Positions 11,876 to 47,902 of a DNA stretch of 60,453 nt are shown here, piece after piece. The stretch lies in the NCBI RefSeq assembly GCF_000472665.1, contig NZ_AXAC01000030.1, positions 1-60,453 on the forward strand, given 5' to 3'. The position numbers were made by a program, and so were the translations under genes. The notes under the pieces were generated by a model. It worked only from the letters and a program-made list of their open reading frames with translations. It searched no databases and was not told the origin of the DNA. Numbering within the stretch: position 1 is the first letter of the stretch; each line of letters opens with the position of its first letter. Origin of the DNA: Acetobacterium malicum subsp. dehalogenans DSM 11527. Lineage in GTDB: Bacteria > Bacillota > Clostridia > Eubacteriales > Eubacteriaceae.

Positions 11876-11905
11876 AATATAACATAAATGACCAGATCTT
11901 GTCAA
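11876..11905 (-). promoter_or_regulatory. metYA promoter
   Basis: On the minus strand TTGACA (11905-11900) and TATATT (11881-11876) are separated by 18 bp. The 5' UTR would be only about 50 nt, too short for a SAM riboswitch or T-box, which commonly control such genes in clostridia. ATTCC-AGTA-GGAAT (about 11857-11870) just behind the -10 could be an operator. Confidence 0.7.
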
Positions 11906-11954
11906 TACGTAAAGCAAAGAATGAAAAATTAACACTCTTTTAATAACTATTCGT

Positions 11955-11983
11955 TTGACATTGATAAAAATTAGGTCTATAAT
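11955..11983 (+). promoter_or_regulatory. aroF-tyrA leader promoter
   Basis: TTGACA at 11955-11960 and TATAAT at 11978-11983, spacer 17 bp: a perfect vegetative promoter, divergent from the metY promoter. Transcription would begin near 11990, giving a leader RNA of about 270 nt up to the terminator at 12232-12262. Confidence 0.85.
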
Positions 11984-12064
11984 AAATCAAAATACACGTT
12001 ACAATTCAACAAGGTTGTGGAGAAGTTCATTTTCTCAGCTGTAAGGTGTCCTGAGAGGAATATC

Positions 12065-12187
12065 ATGGAAGAGTTAAGAAGAAACTTAAATGAATATTAT
12101 TACGTTAACACCCAAAGCTATTGGTTCTTTAGCTTTGGTTACTTTGCGTGCAATAAATTAAGTTCCTTTGAGAATCCCAACCCATGA
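12065..12187 (+). CDS. aromatic-rich leader peptide (40 aa) of an attenuator
   Basis: ATG at 12065 has AGGA five bases upstream; the frame ends with TGA at 12185-12187. Residues 11-27 read YYYVNTQSYWFFSFGYF, i.e. ten aromatic residues (Tyr, Trp and Phe) in seventeen. The codons sit over a 9-bp hairpin (CCAAAGCTA 12112-12120 with TAGCTTTGG 12130-12138). A terminator follows 45 nt after the stop, and the downstream genes make aromatic amino acids. These are the classic parts of ribosome-mediated attenuation (as in pheL/trpL of enterobacteria), here apparently sensing all three aromatics. A ribosome stalled for lack of charged tRNA would disrupt the hairpin. It is too short for usual gene callers. 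Confidence 0.85.
   Translation: MEELRRNLNEYYYVNTQSYWFFSFGYFACNKLSSFENPNP
12112..12138 (+). promoter_or_regulatory. pause-type hairpin over the aromatic control codons
   Basis: Nine perfect base pairs with a nine-base loop, formed by the codons for Thr/Gln/Ser-Tyr on one side and Ser-Phe-Gly on the other. A possible antiterminator downstream is AAGTTCCT (12160-12167) with AGGAGGCTT (12232-12240), eight pairs with one bulge; this pairing is my suggestion and is not computed. Confidence 0.55.
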
Positions 12188-12231
12188 GAAATTTTTAGCG
12201 ATACAAGTGTATTGAATAAAAGTTGATTTTT

Positions 12232-12262
12232 AGGAGGCTTCTTAGGAGGCCTCCTTTTTTTT
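12232..12262 (+). terminator. attenuator terminator before aroF
   Basis: AGGAGGC (12232-12238) pairs with GCCTCCT (12249-12255), followed by eight T. It lies between the leader peptide and aroF, so it must be read through for expression. Confidence 0.85.
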
Positions 12263-12412
12263 CGAAAGGCAAAAGCTAAAGATCATGCTAGCAATTTAGC
12301 GGCTGCCTGCGAATCACGGGAAATCAGTAAGGTGGTTTCTGGTGGTCTTCGGTGCACAGAAGATAAAAAAATGGAGCTTAATAGTCAGTGATTAAAAATA
12401 ATGGAGGAAGAA

Positions 12413-13423
12413 ATGATAATAGTAGTTAAACCCAACACCAAAGAAGAAGATATTCAGAGATTAATCAAGATGATTGAAACTCAGGGATTAAACATTCATT
12501 ATTCAAAAGGTGTGGATCACACCATTCTAGGAATAGTAGGGGATACAACCTTGGCAGATGTGGAAAAAATCCGTTCGAATCGTATTGTGGAAAATGTGCT
12601 CAGAGTTCAGGAACCCTATAAAAAAGCCAATCGTCTTTTTCATCCGGATGACACCATTATTACTGTCAAAGGTCGAAAAGTCGGCGAGGGTACCATTAGC
12701 GTCATGGCTGGACCTTGCTCGGTGGAGAGTGAAGAGCAGATTGTCTCAATTGCCAAAAGTGTCAAGGAATCCGGAGCTACCTTTCTGCGGGGCGGCGCCT
12801 TCAAACCGCGAACCTCGCCGTATGCTTTCCAGGGCTTAGGATATGAAGGGCTGGAGTTATTAAAAATCGCCAGAAAAGAAACCGGACTGCCGATTGTCAG
12901 CGAACTGATGTCACTGGAACATCTGGAGGCCTTTGAAGATGTGGATATTATCCAGGTGGGGGCCAGAAATATGCAGAATTTTGATTTGCTCCGGGAATTG
13001 GGAAAAATTGACAAGCCGATCCTGCTGAAACGGGGGATGTCGTCGACGATGCAGGAATTTCTGATGTCGGCTGAATACATCATGAAAGAAGGAAATGATA
13101 AAGTCATCCTGTGTGAACGGGGAATCCGGACTTTTGAAACCGCCACCCGCAATACCCTTGATATCAGCTGTATCCCGGTGCTCAAACAAAAGAGTCACTT
13201 ACCCATTATTGTCGACCCCAGCCATGCCACCGGGTTGTCCTGGACGGTTGAAGCATTGACCAAGGCGGCCATCGCTGCCGGCGCTGATGGCGTGATGATT
13301 GAGGTTCATAACAATCCCGAAGAAGCCCTTTGCGATGGCGAACAGTCGATTACGCCGGAACAATTCCATAAAATCATGATCACGGTCAAAAAATACGCTG
13401 AATTTGAGAACAAGGTGATGTAA
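12413..13423 (+). CDS. aroF: 3-deoxy-7-phosphoheptulonate (DAHP) synthase
   Basis: This enzyme joins PEP and erythrose 4-phosphate, the first step of the shikimate pathway. It is of the type Ibeta seen in Thermotoga and Bacillus, with an N-terminal ferredoxin-like regulatory domain (residues 1-70) and a barrel beginning at MAGPCSVES. The metal and substrate motifs GGAFKPRTSPY, LKRGMSST, ILCERGIRTFE and IVDPSHATG are present. An upstream in-frame ATG at 12401 overlaps the ribosome binding site GGAGGA, so ATG 12413 (MIIVVKPNT) is the start, as in homologues; 336 residues. The regulatory domain suggests feedback control on top of the leader attenuation. It overlaps tyrA by one base. Confidence 0.95.
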   Translation: MIIVVKPNTKEEDIQRLIKMIETQGLNIHYSKGVDHTILGIVGDTTLADVEKIRSNRIVENVLRVQEPYKKANRLFHPDDTIITVKGRKVGEGTISVMAGPCSVESEEQIVSIAKSVKESGATFLRGGAFKPRTSPYAFQGLGYEGLELLKIARKETGLPIVSELMSLEHLEAFEDVDIIQVGARNMQNFDLLRELGKIDKPILLKRGMSSTMQEFLMSAEYIMKEGNDKVILCERGIRTFETATRNTLDISCIPVLKQKSHLPIIVDPSHATGLSWTVEALTKAAIAAGADGVMIEVHNNPEEALCDGEQSITPEQFHKIMITVKKYAEFENKVM

Positions 13424-14316
13424 TGAAAAAACGAGAAGACTCCATTGTTGGCTTTATTGGCCTGGGTCTGATGGGCGGAGCGCTGGCCATGGGACTCAGG
13501 AAACAGGGACCCAGGGAAATCTGGGGTTATGATTTAAACCCAGCGGTTATCAAAACCGCCCGGGCCCAGGGCGTGATTGATGAAGGGGTCTGGGATTCGG
13601 CGGGGCTGCAAAAAATGCTGCCCCAATGCGATCTGGTTTTTATCTGTTTGACCCCGATGGACACCCTGGCTTTTTTAGCTCTTTATATGGAAGACTTCAA
13701 ACCGGGAGCCGTTGTCACGGATATTATCGGGGTCAAAGAAGTGGTCTTTAAAAACCTTGGCAATCTGCTGCGCAAAGATATTGATTATATCCCCGGTCAT
13801 CCCATGGCCGGCAGTGAAAAAGAAGGTTTCGGTGGGGCCGATGACCGGATCTTTAAGAACCGGAATTATATTCTGACCCCCTTACCTACCAATCACCCCG
13901 AAAATATTGAGTTGATCCGTGAGATCGTTACCGATCTGGGGTTTAACCATATTGTTGAAACCACCACCGAAATTCACGACCAGAAAATAGCCTTCACTTC
14001 CCAACTCTGCCATGTGATTGCGGCGGCGCTGGTCGATTGCGAGGATGATCTGTCGATTACGGACTTTGAGGGTGGGAGCTTTGGTGATCTGACCCGGATT
14101 GCCATGATCAATGCGCCGATGTGGACCGAGTTGTTTATGTGCAATCGCAAAAATCTGCTCGATCAGATCGAGAAATTTGAAGCCAGTCTGGAAGCGATGA
14201 AGGAAATGATCCGTTTGGATGAAAAAGAAGAATTGATTAACCGGCTTAAATCAGTTCGCGAAAAACGAGTTGCCATGGGGGAGATTCGGGAGGCGAAAAA
14301 CTTAAAAAATCTGTGA
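13423..14316 (+). CDS. tyrA: prephenate dehydrogenase
   Basis: A 297-residue NAD(P)-dependent dehydrogenase making 4-hydroxyphenylpyruvate for tyrosine. Rossmann motif GLGLMGGALA lies at 11-22; HPMAGSEKEGF near residue 126 is the prephenate-binding signature. No C-terminal ACT domain is present, so tyrosine feedback through ACT is not expected. The start codon overlaps the aroF stop (TAATG), so translation is coupled. The rest of the aromatic pathway is not in the window. Confidence 0.93.
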   Translation: MKKREDSIVGFIGLGLMGGALAMGLRKQGPREIWGYDLNPAVIKTARAQGVIDEGVWDSAGLQKMLPQCDLVFICLTPMDTLAFLALYMEDFKPGAVVTDIIGVKEVVFKNLGNLLRKDIDYIPGHPMAGSEKEGFGGADDRIFKNRNYILTPLPTNHPENIELIREIVTDLGFNHIVETTTEIHDQKIAFTSQLCHVIAAALVDCEDDLSITDFEGGSFGDLTRIAMINAPMWTELFMCNRKNLLDQIEKFEASLEAMKEMIRLDEKEELINRLKSVREKRVAMGEIREAKNLKNL

Positions 14317-16049: not shown

Positions 16050-16583
16050 TTACACCTGGGTTGAGGTTACTGAAGCGACCTGATTTTTAACCGATAGCGG
16101 CAACGCTTTAAAAACAAGGGCGGCAATCAGGGCATTGATGCCACCCACCAGCGCCAGGGGAAACATCATCGCAATGACTCCGGGCCAGGTTAACATCGGG
16201 ACCAGCAGCGGTGAACAGAGCAACAACAGGATCGGGCCATTGCAGACGGCGGCAACGATAACGCTGACAATCAGGCCAACGACTTCGTTGGCGGCTTTTT
16301 TAACAAAAGCATAGCTATACCAGGTGGCCACCATGATCAGACCCATTCCCAGGCCAATGGCCAGATGAACGGGTACGGTCATCGGGAATCCTGAGGTAAG
16401 GGCGGTTAGAAGATGACCGATAACCGCAATAATTGCGCCAGCCACAGGTCCCATCAGCAGGGTGCCTAAAAAAGCCGGTAGTGAATCGAAGGCAATCGTG
16501 CCAAAAACTTTTAACTGCGCACCTACAAAAGAGAGGGCAATTAAGAGCGCCATAAAGACGAGTTGTCGGGTGTTAATTTTCAT
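16050..16583 (-). CDS. cblT: ECF-type substrate-binding membrane protein, probable alpha-ribazole transporter CblT
   Basis: A 177-residue protein with about six membrane segments and the charge pattern of ECF transporter S components (GPVAGAIIAVIGHLL, LAIGLGMG). It lies immediately downstream of a cobalamin riboswitch and before cblS, the arrangement described for cblT-cblS in Geobacillus and Listeria. No energising ATPases are adjacent. RBS AAGGAG precedes the ATG. Expected role: uptake of alpha-ribazole or a related cobamide precursor. Confidence 0.8.
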   Translation of the reverse strand: MKINTRQLVFMALLIALSFVGAQLKVFGTIAFDSLPAFLGTLLMGPVAGAIIAVIGHLLTALTSGFPMTVPVHLAIGLGMGLIMVATWYSYAFVKKAANEVVGLIVSVIVAAVCNGPILLLLCSPLLVPMLTWPGVIAMMFPLALVGGINALIAALVFKALPLSVKNQVASVTSTQV

Positions 16584-16699: not shown

Positions 16700-16851
16700 C
16701 CAAATGGAATCATTTCTGGCAGGTCTCCTGAGTCCGTTTCATCGCAGTATTGTCCCTTCCCATGAGGTGGTGATGACAAGTGCTCAACGATACAGTGGTG
16801 GGTCCCTACAGGATTTTAACCTGTTTCCCTATTCTCCTTTTGCAAGGCACC
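16700..16851 (-). promoter_or_regulatory. cobalamin riboswitch
   Basis: Read on the minus strand, the element begins with GGTGCC, continues with AGGGAAACAGGTTAAAATCC and GGGACCCACCACTGT, and contains the B12 box ACTCAGGAGACCTGCC (16733-16718). All are hallmark parts of class I cobalamin riboswitches. Cobalamin binding should favour the terminator downstream and turn off cblT-cblS. Confidence 0.95.
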
Positions 16852-16876
16852 AAAAAAGCTTTATTTACATGGAAGA

Positions 16877-47609: not shown

Positions 47610-47619
47610 CAGAAAAAAC

Positions 47620-47902
47620 AAACCGGTGATGGTGGAGTAAAGTCAGCAGCGCATTTAAAGCGAGTCGGGGGTGGTGAGAGCCTGACAGGAAGCGGACTGG
47701 CATAATGGGCACCTGAGGGTGTGAGGAAAGGGCAAGGCCTGAGTATTTCACAACGTTTCATCAACGTTAAGGGATGGCAGATGTGATGGCATTTGCAGAT
47801 AAAGTGCACAGGCAAAAATTAGCCTGTGAATAAAGGTGGTACCGTGGGTTATTTTGACTCATCCTTTTATTGTTGTAGACAATAAGGGATGGGTCTTTTT
47901 TA
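47620..47902 (+). promoter_or_regulatory. T-box riboswitch before phenylacetate-CoA ligase
   Basis: The T-box core AAGGTGGTACCGTG is at 47833-47846. Upstream stem I has AGTA (loop E side) near 47636, the distal GGTGGTGAGAGCC, and AGTC/GACT closing above the specifier loop. On its 3' side TAATGGGCACC puts TGG plus one purine before the basal CACC, so Trp is my best reading of the specifier (GGC is an alternative). Uncharged tRNA should stabilise the antiterminator and switch the ligase on. Confidence 0.88.
47856..47902 (+). terminator. T-box-controlled terminator
   Basis: GACTCATCCTTTTATTG pairs with CAATAAGGGATGGGTC (with G-U pairs), then T6, overlapping the region after the T-box core as expected. 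Confidence 0.85.

Follow-up and report, generated by a model that had tools for sequence, protein, structure and literature searches.

The leader that precedes the aroF-tyrA operon of Acetobacterium malicum subsp. dehalogenans DSM 11527 is very probably a classical ribosome-mediated transcription attenuator, as judged from modelled RNA folds and from comparison with relatives. The computations gave an open reading frame under selection, a terminator, mutually exclusive pairings, a codon hairpin that recurs across families, and a link between the codon mix of the leader and the content of the operon behind it.

Leader reading frame and its conservation

The window, i.e. the whole stretch of 60,453 nucleotides that was analysed, carries a sigma-70 type promoter at 11955-11983 (forward strand, as all features below unless stated otherwise), which the first-pass annotation had called perfect and which indeed matches the consensus at 12 of 12 positions, with TTGACA at 11955-11960, a spacer of 17 bp and TATAAT at 11978-11983. 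The 40-residue reading frame with a ribosome-binding site, predicted by the same annotation, was confirmed at 12065-12187 (MEELRRNLNEYYYVNTQSYWFFSFGYFACNKLSSFENPNP), with the Shine-Dalgarno sequence GAGAGG at 12053-12058, six bases 5' of the start codon; the peptide ends in Pro-Asn-Pro, followed by the stop codon at 12185-12187. Residues 11-27 (12095-12145) comprise the putative control codons, where ten of seventeen residues are aromatic (5 Tyr, 4 Phe and 1 Trp), a density attained by only one of 2000 dinucleotide shuffles of 11984-12412. Domain matches bore out the assignment of the two genes downstream, namely aroF (12413-13423) for a DAHP synthase with a ferredoxin-like domain (PF00793 and PF18152; TIGR01361 over the cut-off) and tyrA (13423-14316) for prephenate dehydrogenase (PF02153 and PF20463).

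The leader was searched for in 61 genomes (E < 1e-7), 19 of which belong to the genus, and was found in 17 of these 19; the two others, G004 and G018, showed no match to the window-type DAHP synthase at 1e-60 either. Leader lengths were multiples of three in all 17 genomes, and pN/pS against the window ranged from 0 to 0.50 (two leaders without differences give no ratio), in agreement with purifying selection. At the ten core aromatic positions the only replacements were swaps between Tyr and Phe, except for one Phe codon deleted in three of the 17 genomes. Conservation of the aromatic codons and of the terminator in relatives, proposed earlier as a check, was thus found for both across the 17 genomes. 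Judged from the sequence, that is, from selection and lengths in these genomes, the ORF with its ribosome-binding site would qualify as the translated leader of an attenuator, and its cluster of codons for the amino acids of the operon is the aromatic run itself (10/17).

The first-pass annotation had proposed that phenylalanine, tyrosine and tryptophan are sensed at once. Phe and Tyr codons do dominate, but tryptophan is represented by one codon here, and the leader is mainly of a Phe and Tyr type. Among 82 representative leaders a Trp codon occurs in the 18-residue core of 34; given this rarity of Trp in leader cores, the signals are likely to be Phe and Tyr.

Mutually exclusive RNA structures and the proposed mechanism

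The segment 11990-12262 folds better than 200 of 200 dinucleotide shuffles (z -4.26), and folding it for both states, as had been suggested, predicted mutually exclusive terminator and antiterminator pairings. The strong terminator with eight T residues stood as described: it lies between the leader and the first gene at 12232-12262, with a 10-bp stem (12232-12241 with 12246-12255) and the T run at 12255-12262. Across the genus 98.2% of its alignment cells are paired and seven of ten pairs changed on both sides, a number that none of 500 shuffles reached.

Upstream of it, folding and alignment place a long codon hairpin, P1, at 12066-12179 (12066-12120 with 12130-12179), which in the model sequesters the 5' strand of the antiterminator, shares sequence with the control codons, and so supplies the competing upstream pairing of an attenuator. 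Its inner 9-bp hairpin, P1a (12112-12138), extends over Tyr19-Phe24 and is related to hairpins of other clostridial families. It had been described as lying exactly over the aromatic codons; in fact it covers Tyr19, Trp20, Phe21, Phe22 and Phe24, five of the ten, whereas the Tyr11-13 run stays outside. In the genus alignment 92.9% of P1 cells are paired, against 27-49% when the strands are slid, and the covariation score was reached by one of 500 shuffles; double-sided changes were seen in three of its 36 pairs (65/500 shuffles as high), and the pair types showed no excess (474/500 shuffles as high).

The second pairing option, formerly left as a reading by eye, could be written out as 12160-12176 with 12225-12240. 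The 5' strand (12160-12167 and 12170-12176) lies within the leader ORF and the 3' half of P1, the 3' strand shares 12232-12240 with the 5' arm of the terminator, and the pairs are 12160-12163/12237-12240, 12164-12167/12232-12235 and 12170-12176/12225-12231. Judged on the window alone, however, this pairing has an energy no better than chance, with 240 of 300 shuffles as good, a cognate rank of 0.40 and a shuffle p of 0.525. Across the genus 91.3% of its cells are paired (38-56% when slid), a single pair of the 15 shows changes on both sides, and the covariation score of 0.102 is below the shuffled mean of 0.127, perhaps because this strand also codes and pairs in P1. An alternative antiterminator favoured by the energy model, UGAGAA/UUCUUA, was rejected, since an alignment, read by eye, shows it broken in genome G013 and 12160-12176/12225-12240 kept.

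Exclusive pairing of antiterminator and terminator, which is at chance by energy in the window alone, emerged from family-wide statistics. A loop-limited duplex test, cognate versus non-cognate, was run on 56 leaders chosen to represent a set of 92 (string similarity below 0.55), and the segment around the leader stop paired better with its own terminator arm than did the segments of other leaders (mean rank 0.229, expectation 0.5, n = 56; KS p 8.5e-11), 19 of the 56 falling within the top 5%. A scan with RNAduplex, which allows long internal loops, was weak and was set aside (in 11 of 38 leaders no more than 15 of 300 shuffles did as well; median z -0.84). Furthermore, when a ribosome was stalled in silico in the middle of the aromatic run of 74 diverged leaders, pairing of the terminator 5' arm with upstream sequence rose from 0.563 to 0.714 (+0.151), whereas with shuffled upstream sequence it went from 0.580 to 0.534 (-0.046; p 1e-13 for the difference in gain). 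Changes beyond 0.1 were rises in 39 of the 74 leaders and falls in four. With no ribosome, upstream pairing of the arm in the 74 leaders was no higher than in shuffles (0.563 vs 0.580), and with the ribosome at the stop codon it was 0.356, partly because less sequence is then available.

In the window itself, with the polymerase just before the 3' arm of the terminator, folding gave 0.9 expected antiterminator pairs in the absence of a ribosome, P1 being formed, and 9.7-12.4 pairs when a ribosome occupied the aromatic codons. A ribosome placed at the stop codon left 9.8 terminator pairs and no antiterminator pair. Once the transcript is complete and at equilibrium, the terminator prevails in all states, also in the stalled ones (terminator 9.6-9.8 and antiterminator 0.6-4.8 pairs), and the attenuator model therefore needs the antiterminator to be formed first. 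Classical attenuators are thought to form the antiterminator before the terminator. All the parts of a classical attenuator that had been claimed are present and conserved, and, as predicted by the models, mutually exclusive.

From these structures we infer transcription start, stalling, dependence on charged tRNA, timing and effect size, as follows. RNA polymerase would start just past 11983, and a ribosome would translate the 40-codon leader behind it. Should charged tRNA-Tyr or tRNA-Phe fall short, the ribosome would stall within 12095-12145 and block P1, and the freed 12160-12176 would pair with 12225-12240 before the 3' arm of the terminator is made, so that aroF-tyrA is transcribed. With charged tRNAs plentiful, the ribosome would reach the stop codon at 12185-12187 and cover the antiterminator strand, allowing the terminator (12232-12255) to form; without translation P1 would hold this strand, and the terminator would form as well.

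A highly structured leader (z -4.26, as above) might also be expected of an unrecognised riboswitch or T-box-like element in which the ORF is incidental. That reading is extremely improbable: no Rfam family reached its gathering score in 11900-12420, where the best sub-threshold match had 25.9 of 45 bits and the covariance model of the T-box (RF00230) gave no match, and it runs against the purifying selection on the ORF, whose lengths are multiples of three, and against the position of the conserved hairpin in the aromatic codons of the ORF. Elsewhere in the same genome 13 T-box matches were found at E ≤ 0.01, nine of them over the cut-off, and by eye these precede genes for aminoacyl-tRNA synthetases, leuA, ilvC, trpE, a trpB and others. 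The TRAP protein (PF02081) had no match in this genome at E 0.01, while the Bacillus subtilis control was found.

It should be added that the window holds a T-box at 47617-47869, before a gene whose product, by eye, resembles phenylacetate-CoA ligase; another T-box of this genome (L195) stands ahead of a gene of similar kind. A cobalamin riboswitch lies on the reverse strand at 16701-16869, followed on that strand by a gene (16050-16583) whose product, by eye, resembles a component of an ECF-type transporter.

Between the terminator and aroF there is one more conserved hairpin, TCTTC-GGTGCACA-GAAGA (12346-12363), with a self-complementary GUGCAC loop. The loop reads GTGCAC in 19 of 20 genomes of the genus and of genus g5 taken together, and GTGCAT in G009; all five stem pairs change on both sides somewhere and 96% of cells are paired, which none of 500 shuffles equalled (16 of the 20 sequences). 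A search with a model of this hairpin, covering the genomes of the genus without g5, returned one match below E 1e-4 in each of 17 genomes, at the aroF operon. It is a possible loop-loop dimer or protein site and is not needed for the attenuator model.

Aromatic leaders across Clostridia

For the survey a leader was defined by a start codon with a Shine-Dalgarno sequence and at least six aromatic residues in 15, followed by a terminator of -8 kcal/mol or below before the gene. Among DAHP synthase loci of relatives, 39 of 49 had a leader and ten had none. In two further sets, which consist of best-scoring matches and are not random samples, leaders preceded 47 of 80 loci taken from genome contigs (27 without leader, five without terminator, one too short) and 36 of 110 loci from the class (68 without leader, four without terminator, two too short). 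The ORF criterion alone was also selective, as 44 of 79 genome-contig loci reached seven aromatic residues against five of 1580 shuffles. The aromatic leader had been thought unusual; it is not confined to the genus, and leader and terminator precede DAHP synthase in many other clostridial loci.

Aromatic genes of Firmicutes are usually described as being run by T-boxes or TRAP. Against this picture, among the best-scoring loci of the class a predicted leader-peptide attenuator stands before the pathway's entry enzyme in 36 of 78 genomes and 21 of 35 families, the case of family f26 (L176) being doubtful. T-boxes were found at nine of 40 leaderless DAHP synthase loci of the class (40 of 68 tested) and, on the gene strand, at none of 20 loci with a leader (20 of 36 tested), where one (L170) lay on the opposite strand.

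As to the curation of these sets, the doubtful matches G027 and L176 were kept in the survey; the row of L166 (G244), whose true leader is likely Phe-rich and in another frame, was replaced before the final count of composition; the leader of G054, with masked letters, was excluded from the composition and stall counts; and G055 was dropped for its doubtful terminator. In L293 (G026) and L053 (G032), two tandem DAHP synthase genes followed by tyrA stand behind one aromatic leader.

Across families the aromatic codons often lie in a similar hairpin. In an alignment of 25 of 29 examples (L164, L239, L243 and L260 were left out, the hairpin finder having settled on the wrong place), 81.8% of cells were paired against 21-43% when slid, and the covariation score of 0.329 exceeded the shuffled 0.216 (sd 0.023) and all of 500 shuffles; four pairs changed on both sides (106/500 shuffles as high), and one position, mostly G opposite G, was unpaired in 19 of the 25. 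At least five of six outer pairs were present in 20 of 75 representatives, whereas codon-shuffled leaders gave 6 on average and 12 at most; for at least four pairs the excess was weak (29 against a mean of 22.5 and a maximum of 30).

A 44-nt model of the codon hairpin, R1, had matches at E ≤ 0.05 in 95 of the 391 genomes of the class and gave 51 matches at E < 1e-4 in the 391 Clostridia genomes. The surroundings of 38 of these 51 were read (14 training loci and 24 others), and all 38 precede genes of the aromatic pathway. Of the best 30 matches, 28 stand before DAHP synthase, one before tyrA (L292) and one before aroB (L311); other sites include pheA in G127 (L322) and a chorismate mutase-shikimate kinase fusion (L320). 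Four of nine weaker matches (E 4e-4 to 0.012) also precede aromatic genes (L319, L327, L334 and L335), L334 (E 0.002) a gene for chorismate mutase/prephenate dehydratase, and for L317, L318, L325, L326 and L331 an aromatic-gene context was absent or unclear. In L327 (G138; E 0.001) the DAHP synthase behind the leader is of the other family, the TIGR00034 aroFGH type, and leader and enzyme type may thus not be tied.

Residues in the aromatic run recur across families, and this bears on whether the ribosome is stalled by the peptide itself, perhaps together with a free aromatic amino acid, and not through the charging of tRNA, the RNA switch being the same. TnaC is of this nascent-peptide arrest type. 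The motif [SGYF]AG[YFWSAK] occurs in 17 of 75 representatives, against a shuffled mean of 2.0 and maximum of 7, and the Pro-Asn-Pro-stop end of the window leader would suit such a sensor. Nevertheless, among the 19 leaders listed all 12 serines of the motif are encoded by AGC, and the hairpin pairs covary; the recurring residues fall on the codon hairpin and can be accounted for by RNA pairing, and the Ala-Gly motif was discarded as a sign of an arrest peptide. Since, moreover, the order and identity of Tyr and Phe vary and follow the downstream gene, and the C-terminal residues are not kept throughout the genus (the leaders of G014 and G005 end in NHEK), we consider an arrest sensor very unlikely.

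The codon mix was compared with operon content, read within about 3 kb, for 82 representatives of 133 leaders; of the 82, 13 were unclassified. A tendency towards Tyr is seen in leaders before tyrA, and one towards Phe in those before pheA or aroB/aroA: the share of Tyr in the aromatic core was 0.50 in 47 operons with tyrA and 0.26 in 22 pheA or aroB/aroA operons without it (Mann-Whitney p 1e-6, in counts that ignore shared ancestry), and Tyr equalled or outnumbered Phe in 29 of the 47 compared with one of the 22. Exceptions exist, as Phe outnumbers Tyr in 18 of the 47 tyrA representatives, and the leader of G060 is rich in Tyr with no tyrA nearby. The tendency also appears within one genus and one genome. 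In all three genomes of genus g5 the leader of a DAHP synthase-tyrA operon has six Tyr and three Phe, and that of a DAHP synthase-pheA operon nine Phe, one Trp and no Tyr; in G127 the pheA leader has seven Phe, one Trp and no Tyr, and the DAHP synthase-tyrA leader five Tyr, two Phe and one Trp.

These data also address translation-dependent termination devoid of specific sensing, in which aroF would be coupled to the general translation rate or to any starvation and the aromatic codons would reflect the history of the regulon. Mixed Tyr/Phe/Trp runs would presumably respond to several limitations, as such coupling would have it, but a codon mix that tracks the operon product down to a single genome makes it highly improbable. 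With the attenuator reading retained, we think it likely that these leaders form an undescribed clostridial RNA family, in which a homologous chassis of P1a, antiterminator and terminator has had its Tyr/Phe mix retuned by codon swaps after duplication or rearrangement of operons, and which precedes two DAHP synthase families, tyrA, pheA, aroB/aroA and the chorismate mutase-shikimate kinase fusion.

Leaders that vary in Tyr and Phe with operon content would offer a natural series for studying how two or three amino acids are weighed, with g5 and G127, each having two such operons, as matched pairs. They would also matter for the engineering of aromatic production in acetogens.

Comparison with known systems

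The mechanism of attenuation is known, and it is the clostridial family, its breadth and the retuning of its codons that appear undescribed in the searchable literature. Among the matches listed for open-licence papers, none dealt with aromatic leader peptides ahead of clostridial DAHP synthase genes, and the main text of a transcriptome paper on Eubacterium limosum contains neither 'leader peptide' nor 'attenuat' (PMC5651825).

The pheL and trpL leaders of E. coli resemble the window in three-state logic, with a protector hairpin, an antiterminator and a terminator, and differ in responding to one amino acid each; the Rfam families of amino acid leaders (Trp, Phe, His and Leu) gave no covariance-model match over the cut-off in the window leader. 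T-box leaders exert control by tRNA charging through direct binding of tRNA, and those before clostridial DAHP synthases share the gene and the dependence on tRNA charging with the window and differ from it in having no leader peptide. The pheA (pheL) and trp (trpL) attenuators of E. coli figure in passages of PMC11802643, and trp, ilv, leu and cys leaders of Actinobacteria in those of PMC1262725.

In bacteria nearer to the window, his attenuators have been predicted in a few Eubacteriales and Erysipelotrichales (passages of PMC9413887); these are likewise predicted leader-peptide attenuators of Firmicutes and differ in their His codons and his operon. The passages of PMC11109978 give uORF candidates before ilvB and fthC and none before aromatic genes. 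A predicted uORF with a terminator, uORFC-13-1, stands before aroF in Acholeplasma, with 24 representatives (PMC8632094); by its description it is like the window in this arrangement and in carrying Phe codon(s), and unlike it in being given for Acholeplasma and environmental sequences only, with at least one Phe codon and no Clostridia in the passages concerned.

The closest known system, likened here by description, is aroR-aroF of Corynebacterium glutamicum, which has in common with the window a leader peptide before DAHP synthase and ribosome-mediated attenuation. This attenuator was reportedly treated by Neshat et al. in 2014. According to the passages available, the aroR leader holds Phe-Tyr-Phe (PMC11802643; also PMC4046766 and PMC11525245), and aroF rises under limitation of Phe and not with Tyr (PMC11802643). 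It is a precedent against the earlier view that a multi-aromatic leader before DAHP synthase would be unusual, and, as far as these passages go, it differs from the leader of the window in belonging to another phylum, in the three aromatic residues named as compared with ten, and in responding to Phe but not to Tyr.
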